A DNA stretch of 51,817 bases from IMG/VR virus record IMGVR_UViG_3300044822_000145, positions 1-51,817 of that record, one strand, 5' to 3'. Positions 4,293-27,004 of this stretch are shown here, piece by piece. The position numbers and the translations under genes are program-made. Each line of letters opens with the position of its first letter. The stretch's first letter is position 1. The DNA is from a virus. The notes beneath the pieces are model-generated. The model ran no database searches and was not told the origin of the DNA. It saw only the letters and a list, made by a program, of their open reading frames with translations.

Positions 4293-5513
4293 ATGTCAAA
4301 CCGTCGCGGTCACAATCCCACGCCTGCGCCCACGCCGACCCCGGTTCCCACGCCCGTCGCTTCAAGCGTCGGCATGGCGGACGCCTTCGTAAGCTCGATC
4401 GGCGTCAACACGCAAATCGACTATACGAACACCGTCTACTACACGAACTGGCCTGCGATCTGGACGCTCTTGCAAGCTTCAGGCATTCGCAACGTGCGCG
4501 ACGGGCTCAACGACGACGGCGCATGGTACTACGAGCGTCTCTCCTCAATTATCGCCGCCGGCATATCGCTCGATCTCGTCTCCACGCCGGGACAAACGTC
4601 CGCATGGGTTTCCGGCTTCTCGAAATTGGTACCGGGCATCTTGTCGATTGAGGGCGCGAACGAGTGGGATGCAAACGGCGGAACCGGATGGGTCGCAGCC
4701 GATATCGCATGGCAAGAGCTGGTCTTCAAGGCCGTTAATAAGACGCTCCCGGTGCTAGGTCCCTCGCTCGCTTCAAGCGCGTCGTATCCGTTGCTCGGTT
4801 CCGGCGCGCTGCCGTATCAAAACTACGGCAACCTCCACATGTACTTCGATAATTACAATCCTGGCAATACCGGCTACGGCGATGCGTTTGCGCCCTACGG
4901 CACGTTCGGCACGATGAGTTTTTGGCTCAACTTGGTCAAGAGCATATCCGGCACGCAGCCGATCATCATCACCGAAACCGGATACGATCAAGAGGCCGGA
5001 TTCATCGACGCAGCGACCGTCGCGAAGTATCTCGTACGCACACTGCTCATGACCTGGAATGCCGGGGTCTCCAAGACATTTATTTATGAGTTCGCCGATG
5101 AAGGCGGGAGCGCCGGCAACTTCGGTCTCGTCACGGCAAGCGCAGCGCCCAAGCCCGCGTACGTCGCGATTAAATCGCTCATTGCCGCGCTCGCCGATCC
5201 GGGCGCGACATTCGCGACGACGCCGCTGTCGTACACGATAAGCGGCGCATCGACAATGCAAAGCACGCTGCTGCAAAAACGCAACGGCACGTACATCCTC
5301 GCGATCTGGAATGAAGTTCCGTCGTGGAACACATCGACGAACGTCGAAATCGTCGTCCCGCCGCAAACGGTTACGCTTACATTCACGAAGGCTCCGACGA
5401 GCATCAGCGCCCTCGCATTCAACGCCGCCGGCAATCTCGTTGCATCGCCGGTCTCTGCGACGCATTCGCTTGCGATAACGGATACCGTGACGCTGGTCAC
5501 GATAACGCCCTAA
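4293..5513 (+). CDS. Glycoside hydrolase, clan GH-A-like, with Pro-rich leader, 406 aa
   Basis: A strong ribosome site (GGAGG, 7 bases before ATG) marks the start. Residues 9-22 are a Pro/Thr linker (PTPAPTPTPVPTP). Residues about 30-300 look like a TIM-barrel glycosidase: IEGANEWD places a candidate acid/base Glu at 124 after Asn123, and IIITETGYD places a candidate nucleophile Glu at 228, the spacing and motifs of clan GH-A. Residues 300-406 form a beta-sandwich. It probably cleaves an envelope or capsule polysaccharide; the exact family and substrate cannot be read. No signal peptide is seen. It is the last gene of the early unit, before a terminator. Confidence 0.65.
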   Translation: MSNRRGHNPTPAPTPTPVPTPVASSVGMADAFVSSIGVNTQIDYTNTVYYTNWPAIWTLLQASGIRNVRDGLNDDGAWYYERLSSIIAAGISLDLVSTPGQTSAWVSGFSKLVPGILSIEGANEWDANGGTGWVAADIAWQELVFKAVNKTLPVLGPSLASSASYPLLGSGALPYQNYGNLHMYFDNYNPGNTGYGDAFAPYGTFGTMSFWLNLVKSISGTQPIIITETGYDQEAGFIDAATVAKYLVRTLLMTWNAGVSKTFIYEFADEGGSAGNFGLVTASAAPKPAYVAIKSLIAALADPGATFATTPLSYTISGASTMQSTLLQKRNGTYILAIWNEVPSWNTSTNVEIVVPPQTVTLTFTKAPTSISALAFNAAGNLVASPVSATHSLAITDTVTLVTITP

Positions 5514-5520
5514 CGCAAAA

Positions 5521-5547
5521 AGCCCCGCCTTTTTTTTCAGCGGGGCT
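5521..5547. terminator. Bidirectional Rho-independent terminator
   Basis: An 8-bp GC-rich stem (AGCCCCGC / GCGGGGCT) with an 11-base loop is flanked by A's on the left and T's on the right. It separates the rightward early unit (glycosidase stop at 5513) from the leftward lysis unit (last stop at 5599), so it can end transcripts from both sides. Confidence 0.9.
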
Positions 5548-5598
5548 TTTCGTGCGTAATGCAGGTATGTAGTTCTTGAAATATGGGTACGCGGCGTA

Positions 5599-5784
5599 TT
5601 ACGCCTTCTTTGCCGGTTGAACCTTTAGCTTTAGCGCTTGCGACGCCGCCTCACGAGCGGACTCAAGCGTCTTCTTGGCCTCGGCGATATCAGATGCGAC
5701 GCCGTGCGTTGCGACGGCTTGCGCAGCCGTAACGAGCGCCTTGGTTGCGGCGATGAATTCTGCGAGGACATCAGGAATTGGCAT
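5599..5784 (-). CDS. Small helical Ala/Lys-rich protein, 61 aa
   Basis: The minus-strand start has a good ribosome site (AAGGAG, about 5 bases upstream). The sequence is a single amphipathic, Ala-rich helical run (FIAATKALVTAAQAVATHG) ending in a basic tail (VQPAKKA). It is the last gene of the leftward endolysin unit. It is not hydrophobic enough to be a clear holin. The function is unknown. Confidence 0.6.
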   Translation of the reverse strand: MPIPDVLAEFIAATKALVTAAQAVATHGVASDIAEAKKTLESAREAASQALKLKVQPAKKA

Positions 5785-5827
5785 GGGACTCCTTCGATAA
5801 GGGTGAAAGTTGTCGCGAATTTCCGCG

Positions 5828-6127
5828 TTATTGGGACGGCTCCTGGTACACGGTAATCGGCGGAATATCGGTTATCTTCGTGATCGTGACTTGAAAGATG
5901 TCGTCGCTTCCTACGGGAACGCGAAACACTCCGGGCTGACCGCTCGCGATCGTTGCCGCGATCAATCCGGCCGCAGCGAACGAGAACCCAGGCGCCGCAG
6001 GCTTCCCGCTCATCGAAACGATCGCGATATTAAAATGCACGCCTTTGATCGTCTGCACAAATGAATGAGAACGATGCACGAAGAGTTGCAAGAATGCGGA
6101 TGTGTATGCGCTTAGATTTTTAATCAC
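5828..6127 (-). CDS. Hypothetical protein of lysis unit, 99 aa
   Basis: GTG at 6127 overlaps the endolysin stop (GTGA), a sign of translational coupling. The protein is predicted beta-rich: HFNIAIVSMSGKPAAPG, a glycine/alanine turn region, then VTITKITDIPPITVYQEP. No signal peptide or clear membrane helix is seen. A longer upstream version of this frame is only the shadow of the endolysin gene. No family is recognised. Confidence 0.5.
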   Translation of the reverse strand: MIKNLSAYTSAFLQLFVHRSHSFVQTIKGVHFNIAIVSMSGKPAAPGFSFAAAGLIAATIASGQPGVFRVPVGSDDIFQVTITKITDIPPITVYQEPSQ

Positions 6128-7234: not shown

Positions 7235-7856
7235 TCTTCACATAGCGCCATGCACGTTAGAAGCCGCTGAATACGCATGTAAGAATTATCATTATAGCGG
7301 AAAATTGGCAGGTAAAGGACTATCAACTGTCCCATTCGGCGTTTGGGAAAACGGTATTTTTGTAGGTTCAATTATGTATGGCCTTGGAGCAACGGGAAAT
7401 ATCGGAAAACCGTTCGGGCTCGTAAAAGGCGAAATTTGTGAACTCGTTCGAATCGCGTTAAAAAAACATGAGACACCGGTATCTCGAATGCTCGCAATTA
7501 CAGTAAAAATGCTGCATAAGAGCTCTAATGGTCTTCGTATGATCGTAAGCTTTGCCGATTCGGGACAAGGCCATCACGGCGGAATTTATCAAGCATGCGG
7601 ATGGATATATCTCGGGAAAACTTCAGGGAATGGATATTTTTTTATACGAGGAAGAATCGTACACTCAAGGAGTATTCATGGTAAATATGGGAGCGGCACT
7701 CAATCTCTCTCATGGATACGAAAGAATCTTGACCCAAAGGCAACACCCGTTCAAACAGGAGCAAAACATAAATATGTTTGGTGTTACGACGAAAGATTAA
7801 AAAGGAAAATAACCGCTATATCTCTTCCATATCCAAAACGTGCGCAGGGAGCATGA
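7215..7856 (+). CDS. mom: Mom-family DNA adenine hypermodification protein, 213 aa
   Basis: The sequence matches the Mu Mom family: CKNYHYSGKLAGKG near residue 23, GVWENGIFVGSIMYGLGA, then KPFGLVKGEICELVRIAL, HETPVSRMLAI and SFADSGQGHHGGIYQA. Mom has a GNAT-like fold and in Mu turns adenine in DNA into N6-methylcarbamoyl adenine, protecting DNA from host restriction enzymes. The gene is clearly richer in A+T than its neighbours, a sign of separate acquisition. It overlaps the ParB-like gene upstream and the tRNA downstream. Mu controls mom with the zinc protein Com; no separate com gene is seen here. Confidence 0.88.
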   Translation: MNSLNPSLHIAPCTLEAAEYACKNYHYSGKLAGKGLSTVPFGVWENGIFVGSIMYGLGATGNIGKPFGLVKGEICELVRIALKKHETPVSRMLAITVKMLHKSSNGLRMIVSFADSGQGHHGGIYQACGWIYLGKTSGNGYFFIRGRIVHSRSIHGKYGSGTQSLSWIRKNLDPKATPVQTGAKHKYVWCYDERLKRKITAISLPYPKRAQGA

Positions 7857-7915
7857 TGGTAATGTGCAGTCATTCCATGATTGAGAAGGCCGTTCGAATC
7901 GGACCTCTGCGCTCC
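7842..7915 (+). tRNA. tRNA-Gly (anticodon UCC), slightly degenerate
   Basis: A full cloverleaf can be drawn: acceptor 7842-7848 with 7906-7912 (7 pairs), D-stem GCAT/ATGT with loop GATGGTA, anticodon stem 7867-7871/7879-7883 with loop ATTCCAT (anticodon TCC at 7874-7876), and T-loop TTCGAAT after a conserved G. Position 73 is T, as in bacterial tRNA-Gly, followed by CC but no encoded final A. Odd points: the T-stem has a one-base bulge (A at 7903), and the normally conserved U8 is G. It overlaps the last 15 bases of the Mom gene. It may be functional or decaying. Confidence 0.75.
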
Positions 7916-7962
7916 GATCCCCGTATAAAGGCAAGCATAAACGGTAAAGAAAGCTAGATGTC

Positions 7963-8388
7963 ATGGCTGGAAGACCTAAAGGCACATTCGGAACGAAGAG
8001 AATTACAAAAGAACTTACGAAAAACATATGCGACCTAATAGAAATAGGTATGCCTCCGCATTATGCAGCACAGGAACAAGGCATATCTGAAAGACTATTT
8101 CAGATATGGATGCAACTAGGACGACAAGCACAAGAAAAAGACGAATGGATTAAGTCCTATTCCGATTTTTTTTCGGAGATAGCGCGCGCCCGCGCGCGTT
8201 GCATAAAAAGGATGCTTGTGCGGGCTCATACTGGTGAGAAGGGAAGTAGTACGGCTATGTGGGTTCTCGAAAAACAGTACAGAGAAGAATTCGGCTCATC
8301 AAAGCCCGATGACGGAAAGCAACAAATAGAGATCGTCGTTAAAAATGCCATACGCGAGCGCGATAGTGAGAGCGAATGCCAACAATAA
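7963..8388 (+). CDS. terS: Terminase small subunit, 141 aa
   Basis: The N-terminal region is basic (MAGRPKGTFGTKR), followed by a helix-turn-helix (PPHYAAQEQGISERLFQIW) that would bind the packaging site, then a long helical oligomerisation region and an acidic C-terminus. The gene lies directly before and overlaps terL by 13 bases, the usual arrangement. Its base composition is lower in GC than the following genes. Confidence 0.75.
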   Translation: MAGRPKGTFGTKRITKELTKNICDLIEIGMPPHYAAQEQGISERLFQIWMQLGRQAQEKDEWIKSYSDFFSEIARARARCIKRMLVRAHTGEKGSSTAMWVLEKQYREEFGSSKPDDGKQQIEIVVKNAIRERDSESECQQ

Positions 8389-9641
8389 CGCTGCCCAGGC
8401 TGCATGGTGGACAGAATGACATCCTCGCGGGCGAAGGGCGTTTCAGAGCCGTGCGGTGCGGTCGCCGCTTTGGGAAAACCTATCTCGCATCCACGCTAAT
8501 ATGCGACGGCGCAGCATCGGGAGAATCATGGGGGCTCTTTGCGCCTGATTACAAGATTCTTTCGGAAACGTATCGTGAGATACATGAAATACTTGATCCG
8601 ATTATTCTTTCATCCTCCAAAATAGACGGCGTAATCCGCGTTCTCGGCGGCGGGCGCGTGGATTTTTGGACCTTGAATAATCCTCGCGCTGGACGCTCGC
8701 GCAAGTATCACGGCGTTATGATCGACGAAGCAGCGTTCGCGGATAAAGACATGGAATCGTTGTGGACGAAATCTATTAAGCCGACGCTGCTCGATTACGG
8801 CGGCATTGCATGGGCGCTATCAACACCCGCAGGCAAAGACGAAGACAACTGGTTCTACCAAATCTGCAACGACAAGAGCCTCGGCTTCGTCGAGTTCCAC
8901 GCGCCGACCGAAAACAACCCGTACCTACCGCGCGAAGAAGTCGCCAAGCTCAAGGATGAAAACTCACCCGAAGTTTACCGCCAGGAATACCTCGCGGAGT
9001 TCGTGGATTGGTCCGGCGTCGCGTTCTTCTCGATTGACGCGCTTCTCGTTGACGGTAAGCCTGTTCCGATGCCGACGATGTGCTATACGGTATTCGCCGT
9101 AATCGATACCGCGATCAAAAGTGGCGAGGAGCACGATAGTACCGGCGTCGTTTACGTTGCATACAATCCCCTCATAAAGCCGTGTACAGTCCTCTTGGAT
9201 TGGGACATTCTCAGCATAGAGGGTGCGCTCCAAGAAGTATGGCTATTGACCGTCTATGAGCGGTGCGAACAGCTAGCGCGCCAATGCGGCGCACTGAAAG
9301 GCTCTATGGGCGCGTTCATCGAGGATAAGGCGACGGGCAGCGTCCTCATCCAGCAGGCCAAGAACAAGGGCAGGCCCGCGTCTGAGATCGACTCCAAACT
9401 CACCGCGATGGGCAAGGACGAACGCGCTATCGCGGCGTCTCCCTACGTGTACGCGGGCGACATCAAAATCGCGGATGAGGCGTTCAATAAGGTTAAGGTA
9501 CATAAAAGAATTTCCGCCAATCACCTCGTCAAGCAAGTCACGGGCTTTCGCATCGGCGACAAGGGGACGGGCAAACTGGACCTGCTCGACTGCTTCACTT
9601 ACTCCATCATCATCACGCGAAACAAGCTTTGGCCGAGGTAG
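8376..9641 (+). CDS. terL: Terminase large subunit, 421 aa
   Basis: The ATPase that drives DNA into the prohead. Walker A is CGRRFGKT at residues 28-35. Walker B with the catalytic Glu is GVMIDEAAF (Asp117-Glu118), followed by the coupling motif LSTPAG. The C-terminal RNase H-like nuclease carries AVIDTA and FIEDKATG with the expected acidic residues. Length is normal for the family. It starts inside terS. Confidence 0.95.
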   Translation: MPTITLPRLHGGQNDILAGEGRFRAVRCGRRFGKTYLASTLICDGAASGESWGLFAPDYKILSETYREIHEILDPIILSSSKIDGVIRVLGGGRVDFWTLNNPRAGRSRKYHGVMIDEAAFADKDMESLWTKSIKPTLLDYGGIAWALSTPAGKDEDNWFYQICNDKSLGFVEFHAPTENNPYLPREEVAKLKDENSPEVYRQEYLAEFVDWSGVAFFSIDALLVDGKPVPMPTMCYTVFAVIDTAIKSGEEHDSTGVVYVAYNPLIKPCTVLLDWDILSIEGALQEVWLLTVYERCEQLARQCGALKGSMGAFIEDKATGSVLIQQAKNKGRPASEIDSKLTAMGKDERAIAASPYVYAGDIKIADEAFNKVKVHKRISANHLVKQVTGFRIGDKGTGKLDLLDCFTYSIIITRNKLWPR

Positions 9642-9667
9642 AGGTGGGAACTAAAAATGAGGGTATC

Positions 9668-9673
9668 TATAAT
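9668..9673 (+). promoter_or_regulatory. TATAAT -10 element before the Ig-like protein gene
   Basis: A perfect TATAAT lies 5 bases upstream of the ATG at 9679, so the transcript would begin about at the start codon. No convincing -35 is seen. The AGGGA between them could also act as a weak ribosome site for the downstream in-frame ATG at 9736 if transcription starts further upstream. Confidence 0.4.
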
Positions 9674-9678
9674 AGGGA

Positions 9679-10272
9679 ATGTTCAAGAAGTACGTCACAG
9701 AATCTTTAGCTCGCATTGAAGGGATACTACTTACCATGGCTACAGCCCAGATCAATAACCAGGCAGCACTCGACGCGGCAATCGCCGCCGTACAGGCAGC
9801 CGTAACGCAGCTCGGTGCGGATCAGACGACCGCGATTGCCGCGCTCCTCGCGAAGATCGCGACGCTTCCCACGGGCGCCGGCGGCACGACCGATTTCACC
9901 CCGGAAGTAACGTCGCTTCAGACGATCGCGGCGAAGCTCACCTCCTTGGACGCTTCAGCCGTCGCCGCGAACCCTGCTGGAACCACGGGCACAGGCACGG
10001 GAACCGGAACAGGCGCGATCGTCGCCAATCCGGCAACGCTCACGATCGCCGGAGGCGCAGGCGCGACCGGCACGTTTTCCGTCACCGAAGCGGCGAACCC
10101 GTCGGCGACGTTCACGGCAGTAAGCTCGGCTCCGAACATCGCGACGGTCACCCCGGCCAATACCGCCGGCTCGTTCACCGTCACGGTCGTAGCCAAGGGC
10201 ACCGCAACGATCAATGTCTCGGACAACGCGACCCCGCCCAACACGGCGACCGTAGCAGTCACCGCCTCCTAA
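9679..10272 (+). CDS. Coiled-coil plus Ig-like domain protein, probably virion-associated, 197 aa
   Basis: Residues about 1-90 are helical and Ala-rich (NNQAALDAAIAAVQAAVTQL), resembling a coiled-coil stalk. A Gly/Thr linker (GTTGTGTGTGTG) follows, then a bacterial Ig-like (Big_2-type) domain with strands such as TFTAVSSAPNIATVTP and ATINVSDN. Such small stalk-plus-Ig proteins in phages are usually surface decoration or fibre proteins that bind carbohydrate weakly. A second start at 9736 (MATAQINN) is possible. Confidence 0.65.
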   Translation: MFKKYVTESLARIEGILLTMATAQINNQAALDAAIAAVQAAVTQLGADQTTAIAALLAKIATLPTGAGGTTDFTPEVTSLQTIAAKLTSLDASAVAANPAGTTGTGTGTGTGAIVANPATLTIAGGAGATGTFSVTEAANPSATFTAVSSAPNIATVTPANTAGSFTVTVVAKGTATINVSDNATPPNTATVAVTAS

Positions 10273-10497
10273 CCCGTTCCCTACAAGCGAGGCGAGCGAG
10301 GAAGCATCAGGGCGTCGGGCAACCCGCGCTCTTTTGTTTTTCCTCGTCCTATTGTTGCTTCCGGCTCCAGCGAGGATGCGACCGCAGTCGCACCGCAGTC
10401 GGAGCCCCCCGCGCCCATCGGGTGCGGCTTTCAACAAATCGGCGGCACGCCGATTCTCCTTATTGGTATGATAGTCGCGCACGTTTACGCACAACCG

Positions 10498-10606
10498 TGT
10501 CTCCCCTGAAACTCCCAGGGGAGACATACGTGTGTCTCCCCTCAGGGGAGCTAGAATCTGTCTCCCCGTAGCAAGCGAGCAGGGGAGACAATAGGGTGTC
10601 TCCCCT
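10498..10606. repeat. Seven alternating inverted repeats TGTCTCCCCT / AGGGGAGACA
   Basis: Copies lie at 10498-10507 (+), 10517-10526 (-), 10533-10542 (+), 10544-10550 (-, shortened), 10559-10567 (+), 10581-10590 (-) and 10597-10606 (+). The strict alternation lets neighbouring copies pair into hairpins. The array abuts the stop codon (10608-10610) of the leftward HTH gene. By analogy with iterons beside replication initiators it may be a binding array or a replication origin; tandem terminator hairpins are another reading. Confidence 0.85.
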
Positions 10607-10607
10607 A

Positions 10608-10958
10608 TCAGGCTCCTCTCTGCAATCGGTATTCCGATCCGAGGTGCGCCGAGCGCGTGGTTTTCGTAAGGAATCCGCCCTTCTCTAGCGAGACTAGCGC
10701 GCGTTGAACGCTGCGCTCCGATACGAGGGCGTCATTAGCTATCGTCTTTTTCTTGGGATGACAAAAGCCGTTCACGTCGGCGTATGACGCGAGAACGAGA
10801 AGCACTTTCAATTCAAGGTGCGTTCGTACGTTGCGCTGCCATGATCGCGGCACGCATCCAAACGGCTCGCCGATGCAATGCACCGGGCGGCGAGATGTCG
10901 TGTCCGCGTAACTCTGATATGTCGTAGGGCCGGGCTTCCTGCCCGTAGTATCATTCAT
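10608..10958 (-). CDS. HTH_36-type initiator-like protein, possibly truncated, 116 aa
   Basis: The start at 10958 (MNDTTGRKPGP) has AGGA upstream. Residues about 45-110 form a winged helix-turn-helix of the phage replication-initiator type (LKVLLVLASYADVNGFCHP, KKTIANDALVSERSVQRAL, LEKGGFLTKTT). The protein ends right after the wing, where the repeat array begins. A +1 frame stays open through the array for about 47 codons and encodes repeated GDT and SP motifs, so the gene may have lost a longer C-terminus by frameshift. It resembles the HTH of the gene at 49943. It lies antisense inside the late unit. Confidence 0.65.
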   Translation of the reverse strand: MNDTTGRKPGPTTYQSYADTTSRRPVHCIGEPFGCVPRSWQRNVRTHLELKVLLVLASYADVNGFCHPKKKTIANDALVSERSVQRALVSLEKGGFLTKTTRSAHLGSEYRLQRGA

Positions 10959-20108: not shown

Positions 20109-20624
20109 ATGCCAACCTTACACTTGGGCGTTTTGGATATGCATTATTCCGACGCGAACGGCGGCGATCCATCGCAGACCACGGGCGAAGTCGCGGAGAA
20201 ACTTGAGAAAAAGTACCACATCATGGAAATCTTCTATGAGTCGCGCAAGCATTCGATAGCGGATTATCTCGCGGAAGACATGGCGCATTCGCTAGAGCGC
20301 ATCATCAAGGGCAAAGGCATCGCAGGCAGCAAGGGCGCGTCTTTCTCAAACAAGTATCACGGTATCAGCGAGATCTACGAACGCTCAAGCCTAACGTACG
20401 GCGCGGATCAAAAGATCGAACGCGACTTCCGCAAGTTCATCTTCTCGAATGAATTGCAAAAGTTGAGCCTTGCGCTTACGGGCGCACCGATCTCGCAAGC
20501 GGCGGCAAGCGGCGTGAATCATCGCTTTAAACGGCCCTATGCGAAGAAGAATCGCGCGAGAATTGCGTTTGTAGATACGGGGTTGTTCGTAAGTAGTTTT
20601 AGATCATGGGTTAGCAAGACGTAA
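20109..20624 (+). CDS. Neck/tail-completion-like protein, 171 aa
   Basis: Helical N-terminal half (GEVAEKLEKKYHIMEIFYES) and a basic C-terminal half ending FVDTGLFVSSFRSWV. The DTG-L-x-x-SF-R-x-W ending is common to tail-completion or neck proteins that bridge head and tail in myoviruses as I recall. Its position between head and tail genes supports this. Confidence 0.55.
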   Translation: MPTLHLGVLDMHYSDANGGDPSQTTGEVAEKLEKKYHIMEIFYESRKHSIADYLAEDMAHSLERIIKGKGIAGSKGASFSNKYHGISEIYERSSLTYGADQKIERDFRKFIFSNELQKLSLALTGAPISQAAASGVNHRFKRPYAKKNRARIAFVDTGLFVSSFRSWVSKT

Positions 20625-21688
20625 TGCCGAGCGCGCAAGAAGCGAGCGGACAACAATCAGCGATTCAATCTGCCCTGGACGCAGGCCTGAATTCAATTGC
20701 GCAGCGGCAGCAGGTGCAGTTTCAACGGTACACGCGCATTGCTCTCGCGTCGGACGGCAGCGTATTCTGGGTTGCGCAACAGGCCGTCGTCATGACCGCG
20801 ATCGGTTCGCTTCATTACGCGACGGACAGAGAACAATCGGAAACCAGCACCCTCGGCTTATCGGATGTGATCTTCAGTAGTGAATCGGAGATAACGCAAT
20901 TCTCGGCGATTGCTCCCGATTTTATGTGGATTGGGCGATGGGATATTCCGAACGCGCCGCCGTTGCGCGTCGCATTTTCGCATCTCGGCAACCTCTTCCG
21001 AGAAGCGGAAATTTTTCATTACACCGGCACGGCGATCACGGCGCTCATGCTGCCGAACATCATCGACAATCCCGCCGACATCCCCGCAGGTCCAATCGTA
21101 AGCAATAGCCTGCCGATATGGCTTTCGATGGGACAGATTACCGGACAAACTGTCCCTTGCTTCGCCTCATTTTTAGTGCCGGAAAATTTGCCCCCACCGT
21201 ATATCTCCGTGCATATCGAGCCTACCATGACCGAGGCGCTCGCAGCGGCTCCCCTTATCGGCCCTTGGCCGGGCGCTACGGAACCAAACAGCGGCGATTC
21301 GCCCCTCCATGACCTCGCCGGCTCTCAGCTTTGCCGCGACGATGTGACGCTCACGCTCTATGGCTTCAGTAACGATGCCGCATGGCAATATCTCGTCGCG
21401 ATCTACGAGGCATCGTATAACGGGACGATGGGGTTCGGATTCGCAAACTCCCCTGCGATTCAGGATGAAAAGCATCTTTCCAGAGAATTGGCGGCAATCG
21501 CGCAAAAGAAAACCTTGCATATCAGCGCCAACTACCTACAAGGCACCGCCGACGCGGTAGCTCGCAGGCTCATCCTCTCCGCTATGCTTTCGAACATCGA
21601 GGTCATCGGGGGCGTGACGCCGACCGGGACAGGGGCAAGCACGCAGGCGCCGCAAACGGCTTCGGGAGTGGGAAGCGTTTATGAATGA
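20624..21688 (+). CDS. Structural (fibre-type) protein, upstream part of an HNH-split gene, 354 aa
   Basis: The stop and start overlap with the previous gene. The body is a beta-rich structural protein with no recognised enzymatic motif. It ends TPTGTGASTQAPQTASGVG plus five residues, and then a stop. In the protein at 24101 the same motif continues directly into a C-terminal beta domain beginning DAGGY; here that domain is found in a separate reading frame at 22439 after an HNH gene. The gene was therefore probably longer (about 450 residues) and was split by the insertion. Confidence 0.7.
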   Translation: MPSAQEASGQQSAIQSALDAGLNSIAQRQQVQFQRYTRIALASDGSVFWVAQQAVVMTAIGSLHYATDREQSETSTLGLSDVIFSSESEITQFSAIAPDFMWIGRWDIPNAPPLRVAFSHLGNLFREAEIFHYTGTAITALMLPNIIDNPADIPAGPIVSNSLPIWLSMGQITGQTVPCFASFLVPENLPPPYISVHIEPTMTEALAAAPLIGPWPGATEPNSGDSPLHDLAGSQLCRDDVTLTLYGFSNDAAWQYLVAIYEASYNGTMGFGFANSPAIQDEKHLSRELAAIAQKKTLHISANYLQGTADAVARRLILSAMLSNIEVIGGVTPTGTGASTQAPQTASGVGSVYE

Positions 21689-21738
21689 CATGTGCGACAG
21701 TGGGAAGCATTCGATCCGTTGTCTAATCCATTTATGTC

Positions 21739-22431
21739 ATGCCAAAAAAAGCAATCGACCCTATTGTGAGATTTTTTCAGTATGTAGATAAAAATGGTCC
21801 GATTCGAAATGCCTCTCGGTGTTGGCTATGGACCGGAGCAAGAACTTATATTCCTGGAAAGCCGGCAAGTAGCGGATATGGAAGATTTGGATTAGGCGGC
21901 AAAAATCGGCATGCCCATATTGTTTCTTGGGAACTTTTTCGCGGGCCAACTAACGGAGCATGGGTACTTCATCGGTGCGACAATCCGCCATGCGTCAACC
22001 CAGATCACTTATTTTTAGGTGACAATACCGCCAATCAAACAGATAGCCTTCTCAAGGGTCGTAGCAGAGCGGCTATGCTCGCCAGTGCTACCCATTGCAA
22101 GCGCGGTCATGAATTCACCCCAGAAAATACCCTGCACGTTAAGCGGTCTGATGACTCTAGCAAATGGATGAGGCAATGCAAAACTTGTGGGCGAATGCGG
22201 GGACGAGTACATGACGCAAAACGTAGACCTCGGATTAGGGTACGCAAGCCATGCGTAAAGCGTCCGCCTATTACGCATTGCAAGCATGGGCATGAATTCA
22301 CCCCCGAGAATACTATTTTATGGGGGCTCAATGATGGATCTGAAAAACTATGGAGACAATGCAGAACTTGTCAACGAGTTAGGGGGCGTGAGTTTGCCAT
22401 GAAGTACAGATTCCGAATGCGCCATAACTAG
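21739..22431 (+). CDS. HNH endonuclease (HNH_3 type) inside a split structural gene, 230 aa
   Basis: The HNH core is at residues about 55-95: RHAHIVSWELFRGP, then WVLHRCDNPPCVNPDHLFLG, where the paired histidines and the terminal N/H are the catalytic and metal residues. Two copies of a zinc unit (CKRGHEFTPENT and CKHGHEFTPENT, each with a later CKTC or CRTC) follow at about 119 and 180, a known tail of phage homing nucleases. The composition is more A+T-rich than its surroundings. Only about 50 bases upstream and 7 downstream separate it from the split halves, too little for a group I intron. Confidence 0.9.
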   Translation: MPKKAIDPIVRFFQYVDKNGPIRNASRCWLWTGARTYIPGKPASSGYGRFGLGGKNRHAHIVSWELFRGPTNGAWVLHRCDNPPCVNPDHLFLGDNTANQTDSLLKGRSRAAMLASATHCKRGHEFTPENTLHVKRSDDSSKWMRQCKTCGRMRGRVHDAKRRPRIRVRKPCVKRPPITHCKHGHEFTPENTILWGLNDGSEKLWRQCRTCQRVRGREFAMKYRFRMRHN

Positions 22432-22438
22432 CGGCGAC

Positions 22439-22720
22439 GTGGGGCCGATCCTCCTGATTGACGCGGGCGGCTATTCGCTCACGGGTTCCACCTGCACCCT
22501 TCTCGCCGCGCCCGGCCGCTGGAAGAAGCTTCTCGGTCGCCCTACGACGTTCTCGCCGGTTGTCGTCTCGCAAGACGGCCTGAGCGGAGCGTACACCCAG
22601 AACGGGAACGACTTCACGACGAGCGGGCCTTGGACGATTGAACTGCAAGTACAGACGCAGGACGGCCAAACGATCACCTCGCCGCCTGGATATATTTTCG
22701 TGTTTCCTAGAATTGCCTGA
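22439..22720 (+). CDS. C-terminal beta domain, downstream part of an HNH-split gene, 93 aa
   Basis: The frame is open slightly upstream of the GTG at 22439. It encodes ILLIDAGGYSLTGSTCTLL..., co-linear with the C-terminus of the 24101 protein (AIVMDAGGYDMTGCTATLI...), including QDGLSGAYTQNGNDF against NNGLTGVYREMNEEF and TSPPG near the end. This resembles the N-terminal/Ig-like fold of BppU-type baseplate or fibre proteins. Whether this fragment is still translated from the GTG or is a remnant is unknown. Confidence 0.65.
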   Translation: MGPILLIDAGGYSLTGSTCTLLAAPGRWKKLLGRPTTFSPVVVSQDGLSGAYTQNGNDFTTSGPWTIELQVQTQDGQTITSPPGYIFVFPRIA

Positions 22721-22742: not shown

Positions 22743-23777
22743 ATGAGCATGATCGACGCGTTTCATCCCTGGGGCGGGAACGGGAAACAACTTCGCAATG
22801 GTATCGAGGACATACGCGAAGACGTTGCGCTCATGACGCGCGGCGTGCTCGATGCGAAGAGTCTGTGGAGCGGATACACGCGCGTCAAGAATCCGGTTGA
22901 AGTCCGCGTCTTCGAGGGCCGGAAAATGGAGAAGCTCGGCGCGCGCATGATCGCGGATCGTGTGATCGATGATCTCGGAAATGTGGATCGCGCGCATTGG
23001 CGATTTCGCGGGGATCGCGTCGATTTTAACGATCCGCGCTGGTCGTCCGCGATCAATCAAATTCGGCGTACGCACAATCTGCAAGTTACCATGGGCATAA
23101 ACCAATGGCTTCGCAGCTTGTGCTTCGGTGATGTCACGGCAAATTCCACAAGCTACACGGGCGTCACCGGGACGGCGACTTCTACATCTGCAACCTCACT
23201 CACGAACACGGGCGCAGCTTTTCCGACGACGGGCGGCGTGAATACGGGGCTTCCTGGGCATGTTGTGTATTGCCCCGCAGCAGGCGTTTACGGCGTGATA
23301 ACGGCGAACACAGCGACCGTTCTCACCGTCGATCAGTGGACCTCGCAGAGCAGCGCAACGGGTGCAGCAGGGTCAACCCCCGCAGGCACGGCGATCTATT
23401 CCATTTGCCCCGGCGCGGGAATCGCCGGATGGATTGGCCTCTCGACCAATTCTGCCGCAGCCGCAGCAGGCGACGTACTGCGTACGGCAGACGGCCTTTT
23501 TGCCGACGGCACAACGGGCGCGGCGGCGACGGAGCAAACGACGAACGGGCTGTCACGCGCGTACGTGCAAGCAACGCTTCCAGCTAGCACGCAGTCGCAG
23601 TTCGCCTATACCTGGACATACACAGGCTCTACAACCGTCGCAATTGCGAAAGCAGTTTTGTGCAACAGTAAGGCCGCAGCGGGTTCTTTGCTTGTCCTAG
23701 AAACGCTTTTGAGCGCAGTGGCAACCGTGGCAGCTTCAGGCGACACATGTGCTTTGACCTGGGTAATCACCGTTTAG
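22743..23777 (+). CDS. Tail-fibre or adsorption-apparatus protein, 344 aa
   Basis: ATG at 22743 has GAGGAG upstream; the longer upstream frame only shadows the previous gene. Residues 1-120 are polar and mixed (DAFHPWGGNGKQLRNG; WRFRGDRVDFNDPRWSSA), and the rest is Ala/Thr/Gly-rich beta sequence (AGIAGWIGLSTNSAAAAAGD) typical of fibre shafts or tips. No enzyme motif is seen. Confidence 0.6.
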   Translation: MSMIDAFHPWGGNGKQLRNGIEDIREDVALMTRGVLDAKSLWSGYTRVKNPVEVRVFEGRKMEKLGARMIADRVIDDLGNVDRAHWRFRGDRVDFNDPRWSSAINQIRRTHNLQVTMGINQWLRSLCFGDVTANSTSYTGVTGTATSTSATSLTNTGAAFPTTGGVNTGLPGHVVYCPAAGVYGVITANTATVLTVDQWTSQSSATGAAGSTPAGTAIYSICPGAGIAGWIGLSTNSAAAAAGDVLRTADGLFADGTTGAAATEQTTNGLSRAYVQATLPASTQSQFAYTWTYTGSTTVAIAKAVLCNSKAAAGSLLVLETLLSAVATVAASGDTCALTWVITV

Positions 23778-23801
23778 TAGTATTTAGGAAAGAGGATGAG
23801 A

Positions 23802-24038
23802 ATGCCTGACCCTTACAAGATCACCGTCGAATCCACGCCGACGCAGCAAACCGATCTCAACGAGACGCATCGGACCTTGCTCTCGTCGATTGCCGAACGC
23901 TTTGCGGCGCTCGGGCATACGGTGCATCGCATTCGCTTGGATCACGGCTCGCTACGCGGCGGCGCGAAAACCTGGAAGCCCGGAGACGATGCGCCGACGG
24001 ATGAGCTTGTCGCGCATGTGACGCCAGCCCCCCACTAA
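23802..24038 (+). CDS. Hypothetical protein, 78 aa
   Basis: AGGAAAGAGG abuts the in-frame ATG at 23796 but is 6 bases from the ATG at 23802, so 23802 is the likely start (MPDPYKITVESTPTQQTD). It has a helical centre and a basic C-terminal half (RIRLDHGSLRGGAKTWKPGD). It is probably a small structural or assembly protein; no family is known. Confidence 0.55.
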   Translation: MPDPYKITVESTPTQQTDLNETHRTLLSSIAERFAALGHTVHRIRLDHGSLRGGAKTWKPGDDAPTDELVAHVTPAPH

Positions 24039-24052
24039 GTCCTATGGATACA

Positions 24053-24084
24053 GGCGCACTCGTTGCATCGATGAACGATGCGCC
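24053..24084 (+). promoter_or_regulatory. Hairpin upstream of the repeat-fibre gene
   Basis: GGCGCACTCGT pairs with ACGATGCGCC (one mismatch) around an 11-base loop, ending 16 bases before the ATG at 24101. No T run follows at once, though GGTTTTAA comes shortly after. It may be a weak terminator or an mRNA structure regulating the fibre gene, which has no clear ribosome site. Confidence 0.4.
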
Positions 24085-24100
24085 TCATCGGCGGTTTTAA

Positions 24101-27004
24101 ATGGCGAATCCTGCGATAGTTCAAACGGGGACGGCTGTTATTACGAATGGGACTAGCGGGACGATATCTCTAAGCACAACTCTTCCTTCTGCTCCGTCGA
24201 GTTCTAATGTTTTAATTGCGATGCTAAGCATTCAAACAAACGGCGGAGGCAGCGGCATAACGCCGCCGTCTGGGTGGACATTATATTCAACAAGCGGTAG
24301 TTTAGTATCATCGCAACCACAAACATGGGTTTATTTTATTACCGGGCAAACTGCGACAAGTTATACGTGGCAATTCGCAACAGGTGGCTATCATGTAATT
24401 TTTGACGGTCAAATAATAGAAGTATCTGGGACAAGTACGACAAGTCCGTTCTTGGCTCAGACATCTTCTATTGGTAACGCTTCTGCTACGACAACTCTTG
24501 CAAGCGGAACAGTTGTTGCCGGAGCCGCAAATCTTTTACCGATAGCGTTTGTATCATTTTTAAATCCCAGTACAGCCGTTCCTGGAGCACCTTCGTCGTA
24601 TACGACAGGATGGTCAGGACTAGGGAATGTTTCTTTTACATTTACAGGAGGATTTCAAGGCGGAGCACTTACATCGTCTATAGGTCCATTGACGACGAGC
24701 GGGCAAAGCGTCTCGGTAACATACACGTATGGATCTAATCTTAGTGTCAATGACGTTTATGTTTTTTTCATTGGATTATTACAACCGCCGTTCACCGCAA
24801 TATCGTCCGTTCAGACAACCGCGAGTGGAACGTCTGCGGCGTCAACGTCTCTGGTTCTCACGTACGGACTGACGCCGACAAGTGGGAATAAACTCATTGC
24901 ATTTATCGCGCAGGGTGCGAATGCCGTTGCTTCCACAGGTCCTACCGGGTGGGTGCTCGCGCAAAGCGAGTATTCTACGGATGCGCTTGAACTTTGGTAT
25001 AAGGATGCAGGCGCATCCGAACCTACGACATACACTTGGACGCTCTCGACATCGACGGCAGTCGGCGATGCGACGGGATATGAATATCATAATGTCGCAA
25101 GCGGCTCAACAGGAATAAACGCAAGCGCAGCATCGACGGGGACGGGCACAAGCCTTGCCACTGGTTCTGTTACGCCGTCTGTTCTCCATACGCAGCCTGT
25201 CGCAGCGTGGAGCGGCATTGTCACGAGTTGGTCAACGCTTACAACGGGATGGACGATCGGTACGACGGCGACAAGTACGTCGTACTCTTGTCAGCAGGCA
25301 TCGCAGAATACGCTTACGGGCGACACCACTACGGCGATAAGCGCATCAAACAAAAGCGCATCCGGCAGTTTGCGAAAACTGAGCATCATCGTTTTGCTTG
25401 CTCCAAGCGCGGGCGGTAATTTCAATGTCGTCACGGCTTCGGATTCCTTTGCCGCGATAACCGATAGCCTATCGAGAACGATCACGTTCACGCGTACATT
25501 GTCAGATTCTCCGTCCGTATGGTCTGATTCGCTCGCACGTATAGTTTCGCTTCCTCGCGCGATAAGCGATACCACGGCAGCGTTTACAGACGCCCTCTCA
25601 CGCCTTGTAGGACTGCCTCGCTCGCCTTCTGATACGCTTGCAGGATGGATCGATACGGCGACGCGAGGGGCAATGCCGTTCACGCGCACAGCCTCGGATA
25701 GTTTCTCGGCGATTACCGATTCCGTCGCGAGGACCGTCTCTTTGCCGCGTACGGCAACGGATACGCCCGCAGCATGGTCGGACACCCTCGCGCGCGGATC
25801 ACAAGCATTCACGCGAACGGCATCCGATTCTCCGGCTGCATGGGCGGATACCGCTTCGCGAGAGGTCGTCCTTGTGCGCGTCGTGAGCGATACGAACGCG
25901 TCATGGTCGGATAGCGTCTCGCGAAACGTTGTCTCACCCAGGACGGCGGCAGATACCGTCTCGGGGTTCTCCGATACGCTCTCGCGTTCGCCTATGGCAT
26001 TTGCGCGCACGGCGAGCGATAGCACATCCGCATGGTCAGATTCGATCTCTCGTGCCGTCGCTTTCGCGCGTACAGCAAGCGATAGCGTCTTGGGATGGTC
26101 GGATACGCTCGCGCGCAGCATTCGCCTCCCACGATCCATCTCCGATACGTTCACGGCATGGTCGGACATCGTATCGACCGGGAAAGCGTACTTCCTCACC
26201 GCGTCTGATACGCTCGCATCATGGTCGGATTCTTTGTCGCGTGGACCTATATCGTTTGCGCGCTCCGCTTCAGATTCGCTCTCGTCATGGCTCGATGTCC
26301 CCTCGCGCATCGCGTCGTTCTCGCGCAGCGCATCCGACGTGCTCGGCGGATTCTCCGACGTTGCCTCGCGGGTTTTCGGCGCTCACCGTAGCGCGACGGA
26401 CAGCATCGCGGCGATAACGGATATGGCGAGCAAGCGACAAGGCTTCTCGCGCACGGCTTCCGACACGTTCGCGGCTCCCACGGAATCCCTAACCCGTGTC
26501 GTATCGGCACCTCGAAGCGCATCCGACACGCTCTCGGCCTGGGGCGAATCGATCGGGCGCATCCTCCGCCTCCCGCGCGGGATCTCGGATACGGTCGCCT
26601 CGTGGATCGATGTCCTCCTCAATATCCCGCATATCATCGGTATCGGCGCGTCTACCCAGGCTTCCCAAACCGCCGCAGGCTTCATCGTCGTTGAGAACCT
26701 GGGCCTCGGACGCGCGATCGTCATGGATGCGGGCGGCTACGATATGACGGGTTGCACTGCGACGCTCATCGCCGTCCCCGGCCCCTTCGACGCACAGGGC
26801 GAGAAACTGCGATTGACGCCCGTGGGGATACTCAATAATGGCCTCACCGGCGTCTACCGCGAGATGAACGAGGAATTCGCGATCGGCGGAGAGTGGAGTC
26901 TTCAGCTTGAACTCCTTCTTCCGACCGGCCTCATCTACACGTCGCCGCCCGGCCAGGTCTTTTTCCCGCCGATTCTGGAGACAGACGAAGAGGAGTTTGA
27001 GTGA
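24101..27004 (+). CDS. Long tail fibre with 19 tandem 21-aa repeats, 967 aa
   Basis: Three parts are seen. Residues 1-440 are two beta-sandwich-like, Ser/Thr-rich domains (ITPPSGWTLYSTSG; GPTGWVLAQSEYSTDALEL), resembling adhesin modules; this part is more A+T-rich. Residues about 445-840 are 19 tandem units of about 21 residues, consensus R-[TS]-x-SD-x(4)-W-SD-x(2)-SR-x(5). The C-terminus (about 848-967) has the motif GIGASTQASQTAAG and a beta domain starting DAGGYDMTG, shared with the split gene at 20624/22439. It is probably a fibre that contacts the host, with the C-terminus as an attachment or tip domain. Confidence 0.75.
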   Translation: MANPAIVQTGTAVITNGTSGTISLSTTLPSAPSSSNVLIAMLSIQTNGGGSGITPPSGWTLYSTSGSLVSSQPQTWVYFITGQTATSYTWQFATGGYHVIFDGQIIEVSGTSTTSPFLAQTSSIGNASATTTLASGTVVAGAANLLPIAFVSFLNPSTAVPGAPSSYTTGWSGLGNVSFTFTGGFQGGALTSSIGPLTTSGQSVSVTYTYGSNLSVNDVYVFFIGLLQPPFTAISSVQTTASGTSAASTSLVLTYGLTPTSGNKLIAFIAQGANAVASTGPTGWVLAQSEYSTDALELWYKDAGASEPTTYTWTLSTSTAVGDATGYEYHNVASGSTGINASAASTGTGTSLATGSVTPSVLHTQPVAAWSGIVTSWSTLTTGWTIGTTATSTSYSCQQASQNTLTGDTTTAISASNKSASGSLRKLSIIVLLAPSAGGNFNVVTASDSFAAITDSLSRTITFTRTLSDSPSVWSDSLARIVSLPRAISDTTAAFTDALSRLVGLPRSPSDTLAGWIDTATRGAMPFTRTASDSFSAITDSVARTVSLPRTATDTPAAWSDTLARGSQAFTRTASDSPAAWADTASREVVLVRVVSDTNASWSDSVSRNVVSPRTAADTVSGFSDTLSRSPMAFARTASDSTSAWSDSISRAVAFARTASDSVLGWSDTLARSIRLPRSISDTFTAWSDIVSTGKAYFLTASDTLASWSDSLSRGPISFARSASDSLSSWLDVPSRIASFSRSASDVLGGFSDVASRVFGAHRSATDSIAAITDMASKRQGFSRTASDTFAAPTESLTRVVSAPRSASDTLSAWGESIGRILRLPRGISDTVASWIDVLLNIPHIIGIGASTQASQTAAGFIVVENLGLGRAIVMDAGGYDMTGCTATLIAVPGPFDAQGEKLRLTPVGILNNGLTGVYREMNEEFAIGGEWSLQLELLLPTGLIYTSPPGQVFFPPILETDEEEFE
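25433..26625 (+). repeat. 19 tandem ~63-bp units within the fibre gene
   Basis: Each unit encodes 20-22 residues with SD near the start, a second D about seven residues later, usually after W, F or I, and an R three to five residues after that. Units differ in DNA sequence, so they are old relative to recent slippage. The regular Ser-Asp pairs suggest a repeated beta-turn or calcium-type loop, but no known repeat family was identified with confidence. Confidence 0.85.

Follow-up and report, generated by a model that had tools for sequence, protein, structure and literature searches.

The window analysed here is a 51,817-nt stretch of viral DNA (IMG/VR record IMGVR_UViG_3300044822_000145), in which three ORFs follow one another on the plus strand. 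The upstream gene (20624..21688) encodes a complete protein of 354 aa that matched phrog_6359 (1.2e-60) and ends in GTGASTQAPQTASGVGSVYE, with its native TGA stop codon at 21686-21688. An HNH endonuclease gene (21739..22431) encoding 230 aa lies next to it, flanked by spacers of 50 nt and 7 nt. The downstream gene (22439..22720) encodes, from a GTG, a 93-aa protein with a predicted Ig-like beta-sandwich, referred to here as the DAGGY protein. The coordinates, the ORFs, the nuclease gene and both spacers had been given in a preliminary description of the locus, and they were borne out by our reading of the sequence and by the family matches of the nuclease (HNH_3 and phrog_826). The preliminary description took the two outer genes for a single structural gene that the nuclease had split.

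The HNH ORF matched Pfam HNH_3 with an E-value of 1.5e-7 (31.4 bits against a cut-off of 24.8) and phrog_826, an HNH endonuclease family (4e-41). Its product consists of the HNH_3 core and two zinc-ribbon-like repeats, HCK(R/H)GHEFTPENT, which are encoded by an internal duplication of 42-nt segments (22089-22130 and 22272-22313, 86% identical). The window nuclease thus shares its sequence family with the phrog_826 endonucleases but differs from them in having the zinc-ribbon-like C-terminal segment in two copies. No close relative of the nuclease was found in IMG/VR, the best being about 42-43% identical over most of the length; hence, there was no second insertion of the element to show recurrent homing. 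As these HNH relatives vary at the C-terminus, comparison with them did not locate the boundaries of the element itself.

IMG/VR relatives of the upstream protein, matching over its full length, were found in L003 (85% identical) and L004 (67-68% identical). Neither carries an HNH gene at the locus, and both have the same two pieces as separate genes: 5001-6065 followed by a 98-aa gene starting at TTG 6058 in L003, and 4836-5897 followed by a 98-aa gene starting at ATG 5894 in L004. Two further DAGGY-bearing loci, L089 and L090, are likewise HNH-free and hold two separate genes. The genes overlap by 8 nt in L003 and by 4 nt in L004, L089 and L090. All four relatives with a DAGGY gene at this place therefore carry two overlapping genes rather than one contiguous ORF. 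A search for an uninterrupted form in HNH-free relatives had been named beforehand in the preliminary description as the test of its claim, and it returned two separate genes in every one of the four, the outcome that the description itself had given as speaking against a split. None of the 51 phrog_6359 loci examined contained an HNH match, and an unrelated gene of about 100 aa comes after the upstream gene in the majority of the more distant loci. When the whole records of L003, L004, L089 and L090 were searched, an HNH relative was detected in L090 only, at another place. The site is thus a presence/absence polymorphism, empty in these four relatives.

To map the insertion, we joined the flanks of the nuclease gene. 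Removal of a 739-bp segment on the plus strand at 21690..22428 (or 21688-22426, as an AC makes the placement ambiguous) brought GGAAGCGTTTATGAATGAC against TAGCGGCGACGTGGGGCCG. The joined flanks, TATGAATGAC followed by TAGCGGCGAC, restored an ATGA stop/start overlap and then MTSGDVGPILLIDAGGY, as in the relatives, and GAATGAC joined to TAGCGGCGAC matched TTTGACTAGCGGCGAC of L003. MTSGDVGPILLIDAGGY, which starts at the overlapping ATG, corresponds to MTSGDRG in L003, MTAGDAG in L089 and MTAGDIG in L090. The closest empty alleles used for this comparison are 67-85% identical at the protein level, not near-identical; the expected joined sequence of an HNH-free allele is ATGACTAGCGGCGAC. The insertion point falls 5 nt into the downstream gene (with the 2-bp AC ambiguity), and the ends of the insert rest on one occupied allele. 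The insert parted the downstream gene from its start codon and took nothing more. The left remnant, the original ATG plus AC (21685..21689), overlaps the upstream stop codon as ATGA. Direct reading showed that the old ATG now starts a 13-codon mini-ORF, MTCATVGSIRSVV (21685..21726), which ends 12 nt before the HNH start, and that the stop codon of the HNH gene, TAG (22429-22431), is target DNA and not part of the insert. The GC content of the insert was 0.478, compared with 0.572 and 0.613 in the flanking genes, and the GC3 of the HNH gene was 0.41, compared with 0.64-0.74, a composition foreign to its surroundings. These results indicated a genuine insertion whose position is well mapped.

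A 13-nt near-repeat, AGTGGGAAGC(G/A)TT, occurs in the target at 21667-21679 and at the left end of the insert at 21699-21711. It was equalled by 3 of 2000 random pieces of the window and may, on the evidence of one allele, be a duplicated flank.

The upstream gene is complete and was untouched by the insertion. Its SVYE-TGA ending and the C-terminal tail of its product are those of L004. The predicted fold was moderately good up to about residue 322, where it closes, and the tail (residues 324-354) was of low confidence. Foldseek returned weak matches for this protein, mostly to neck and tail-terminator proteins, suggesting that it is possibly of neck/tail-terminator type.

The DAGGY protein is encoded by a separate gene in L003, L004, L089 and L090 and is 89% identical to the L004 version. 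Its counterparts are 96-109 aa long, compared with 93 aa in the window. Past the insert, the first common start codon that the downstream frame offers is GTG 22439, and a restart at this internal codon costs five non-core residues. AlphaFold2 predicted the 93-aa protein from the GTG with a pLDDT of 87 and with the first strand (residues 4-8) kept. In Foldseek searches it resembled Ig-like folds, phage baseplate chains among them, with TM scores of 0.62-0.65 to chains of 80alpha, of NF5 and of 4v96, a viral genome injection device; none of the matches reached E<=0.001. No Pfam family scored above its cut-off for this protein, and a search of annotated phages with the DAGGY protein of L004 gave no match.

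A related domain is fused to the C-terminus of the 967-aa protein encoded from 24101 (domain at 26693..26980, plus strand; profile match 4.0e-45). The DAGGY domains are 34-36% identical to one another, and those of the 22439 and 24101 proteins both matched one profile, built with both of them, at E ~1e-44, so their homology is not due to chance. The Ig-like domain is also fused in L003 and L004 proteins. The preliminary description correctly reported that the shared motif and the DAGGY domain are contiguous at the C-terminus of the 24101 protein, and the homology of the domains was confirmed. The 24101 protein is not an intact paralogue of a split gene, however, but a different protein, to whose C-terminus the same Ig-like domain is fused. 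Both the window protein (24101-27004) and an L004 protein (7582-10716) are long and fibre-like, with degenerate 'RTASDSxxAWSDSxSR' repeats and the Ig-like domain at the end.

The motif that had been read as the mark of the split, GASTQ, lies in the upstream protein within the low-confidence tail. Four window proteins contain it, one copy each (19233, 21626, 26639 and 29770), and nine copies occur in L003. This recurrence identifies the motif as a promiscuous linker rather than a suture mark. The wider pattern in the four window proteins is G-x-GAS-x-Q-xx-QTA, to which the nine L003 copies are related.

We then weighed other explanations of the locus. If a single structural gene had been split by the nuclease, its halves might reassemble in the particle, a case like Aeh1 nrdA. 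Motif and domain do follow each other contiguously in L004 7582-10716 as well as in the 24101 protein, and the two pieces are co-linear with the latter. This reading is nevertheless highly unlikely: HNH-free L003, L004, L089 and L090 have two genes, the upstream stop codon precedes the insert and is common to L004, and with the insert removed the downstream ORF is not in the frame of the upstream gene. Each piece, moreover, was predicted as a complete domain rather than as part of one fold, and the motif is a common linker. The split gene was rejected on the four HNH-free relatives and the shared native stop. Programmed frameshifting could instead have normally joined the two genes, with the HNH gene now preventing it. 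In the relatives the DAGGY frame extends without a stop codon for about 20-300 codons ahead of its start and so overlaps the upstream frame. The relative frame in L003 (-8) is unlike that in L004, L089 and L090 (-4), though, so that one single shift cannot serve all of them, and no conserved slippery heptamer was seen at the overlap. We consider such a fusion very improbable and discarded it, as the overlap frame is not conserved.

HNH genes are frequently intron-borne, and the nuclease could in principle lie within a group I intron that is minimal or degenerate, with an RNA core overlapping the ORF. An Rfam cmscan of 18-28 kb gave zero matches at E<=1 and no group I ribozyme core; in addition, with the upstream stop codon ahead of the insert, splicing would leave the reading frames unjoined. 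An intron is thus extremely improbable and was ruled out by the negative Rfam search. The view that the nuclease gene was inserted directly and without an intron held up, given the 739-bp insert, the lack of an Rfam match and flanks that rejoin to a clean empty site. A further explanation accepts the same insertion and supposes that the downstream gene is dead, the Ig-like domain being supplied by the 24101 protein only. Its GTG has no Shine-Dalgarno sequence, and the native ATG now heads the mini-ORF. Against this, the ORF is still open, its dN/dS relative to L004 is 0.11 (mostly reflecting divergence before the insertion), the GTG lies 7 nt past the HNH stop codon, a distance suited to re-initiation, and the predicted fold is intact. 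We regard a dead gene as rather unlikely.

The explanation that we favour is that a free-standing gene of the HNH homing-endonuclease type was inserted at the overlap of two adjacent virion genes, and that no virion protein was split; this is very probably correct. The HNH gene, with neither intron nor intein, would have entered the ATGA overlap of two genes that are probably co-transcribed, cutting the downstream Ig-like gene 5 nt after the start of its ATG and leaving the upstream gene unharmed. The downstream gene is most likely translated from GTG 22439, seven bases past the nuclease stop codon, and ribosomes that finish the nuclease probably re-initiate there, a coupling that we infer. 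No Shine-Dalgarno sequence was found before GTG 22439 or before the HNH ATG, and expression of both genes is putative. Nuclease activity and homing are likewise presumed from knowledge of the family. It is possible, although we hold this only tentatively, that the nuclease gene is accommodated at both ends by the operon's translational coupling, with entry via the old ATGA start and the 13-codon leader and exit via the target-supplied stop codon, which would re-initiate the beheaded gene at the GTG. If so, an insertion at the start codon would be nearly harmless to the phage. With this, one candidate for a split virion protein falls away, and the locus illustrates low-cost settlement of a nuclease at a gene overlap, with a start codon taken, a stop codon borrowed and a possible restart codon left in the neighbour.

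The surroundings are mosaic. Across 20601-21550, the window was mostly nearer L003 than L004 (0.74-0.93 vs 0.63-0.73). Across 21551-21688 it was nearer L004, and past the HNH gene the genes at 22743-24132 are common to L004 only; for those at 22743-24038, no nucleotide counterpart was detected in the L003 phage. The switch in affinity from L003 to L004 thus falls within about 140 nt upstream of the HNH insertion. Homing endonuclease genes (HEGs) have been found at boundaries of genetic exchange in phages (Barth, Dunham, Seed 2023; PMC10448857). The window resembles those cases in having a nuclease beside structural genes within about 140 nt of an affinity switch, but it offers a single locus with a single nuclease rather than a demonstrated HEG island. 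The locus adds one more example of an HNH gene next to a mosaic boundary within a structural module of a phage; the proximity is an association only, as module borders are frequent here.

The preliminary description had compared the locus with T-even mobE in nrdA. The likeness of a directly inserted nuclease stands, but mobE of T4 lies between nrdA and nrdB, with its start overlapping the nrdA stop (UAAUGA), and only Aeh1 mobE splits nrdA (PMC2988022). Aeh1 mobE and T4 mobA in gene 60 each break up a single polypeptide into two parts that are functional (PMC2988022). They share with the window a nuclease gene that was inserted directly and touches coding sequence; in the window, however, the two genes were separate beforehand. 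Aeh1 nrdA is not comparable because its defining feature is one ORF in nuclease-free relatives, and two were found here. T4 mobE is the nearest functional comparison, as an HNH gene without an intron at the junction of two neighbouring genes. The window insert differs from it in lying 5 nt inside the downstream gene, removing the start codon and using a stop codon from target DNA, and its homing is putative. The element is thus of a known kind, a free-standing HNH gene at a gene junction, and its tidy detail lies in the start and stop codons.
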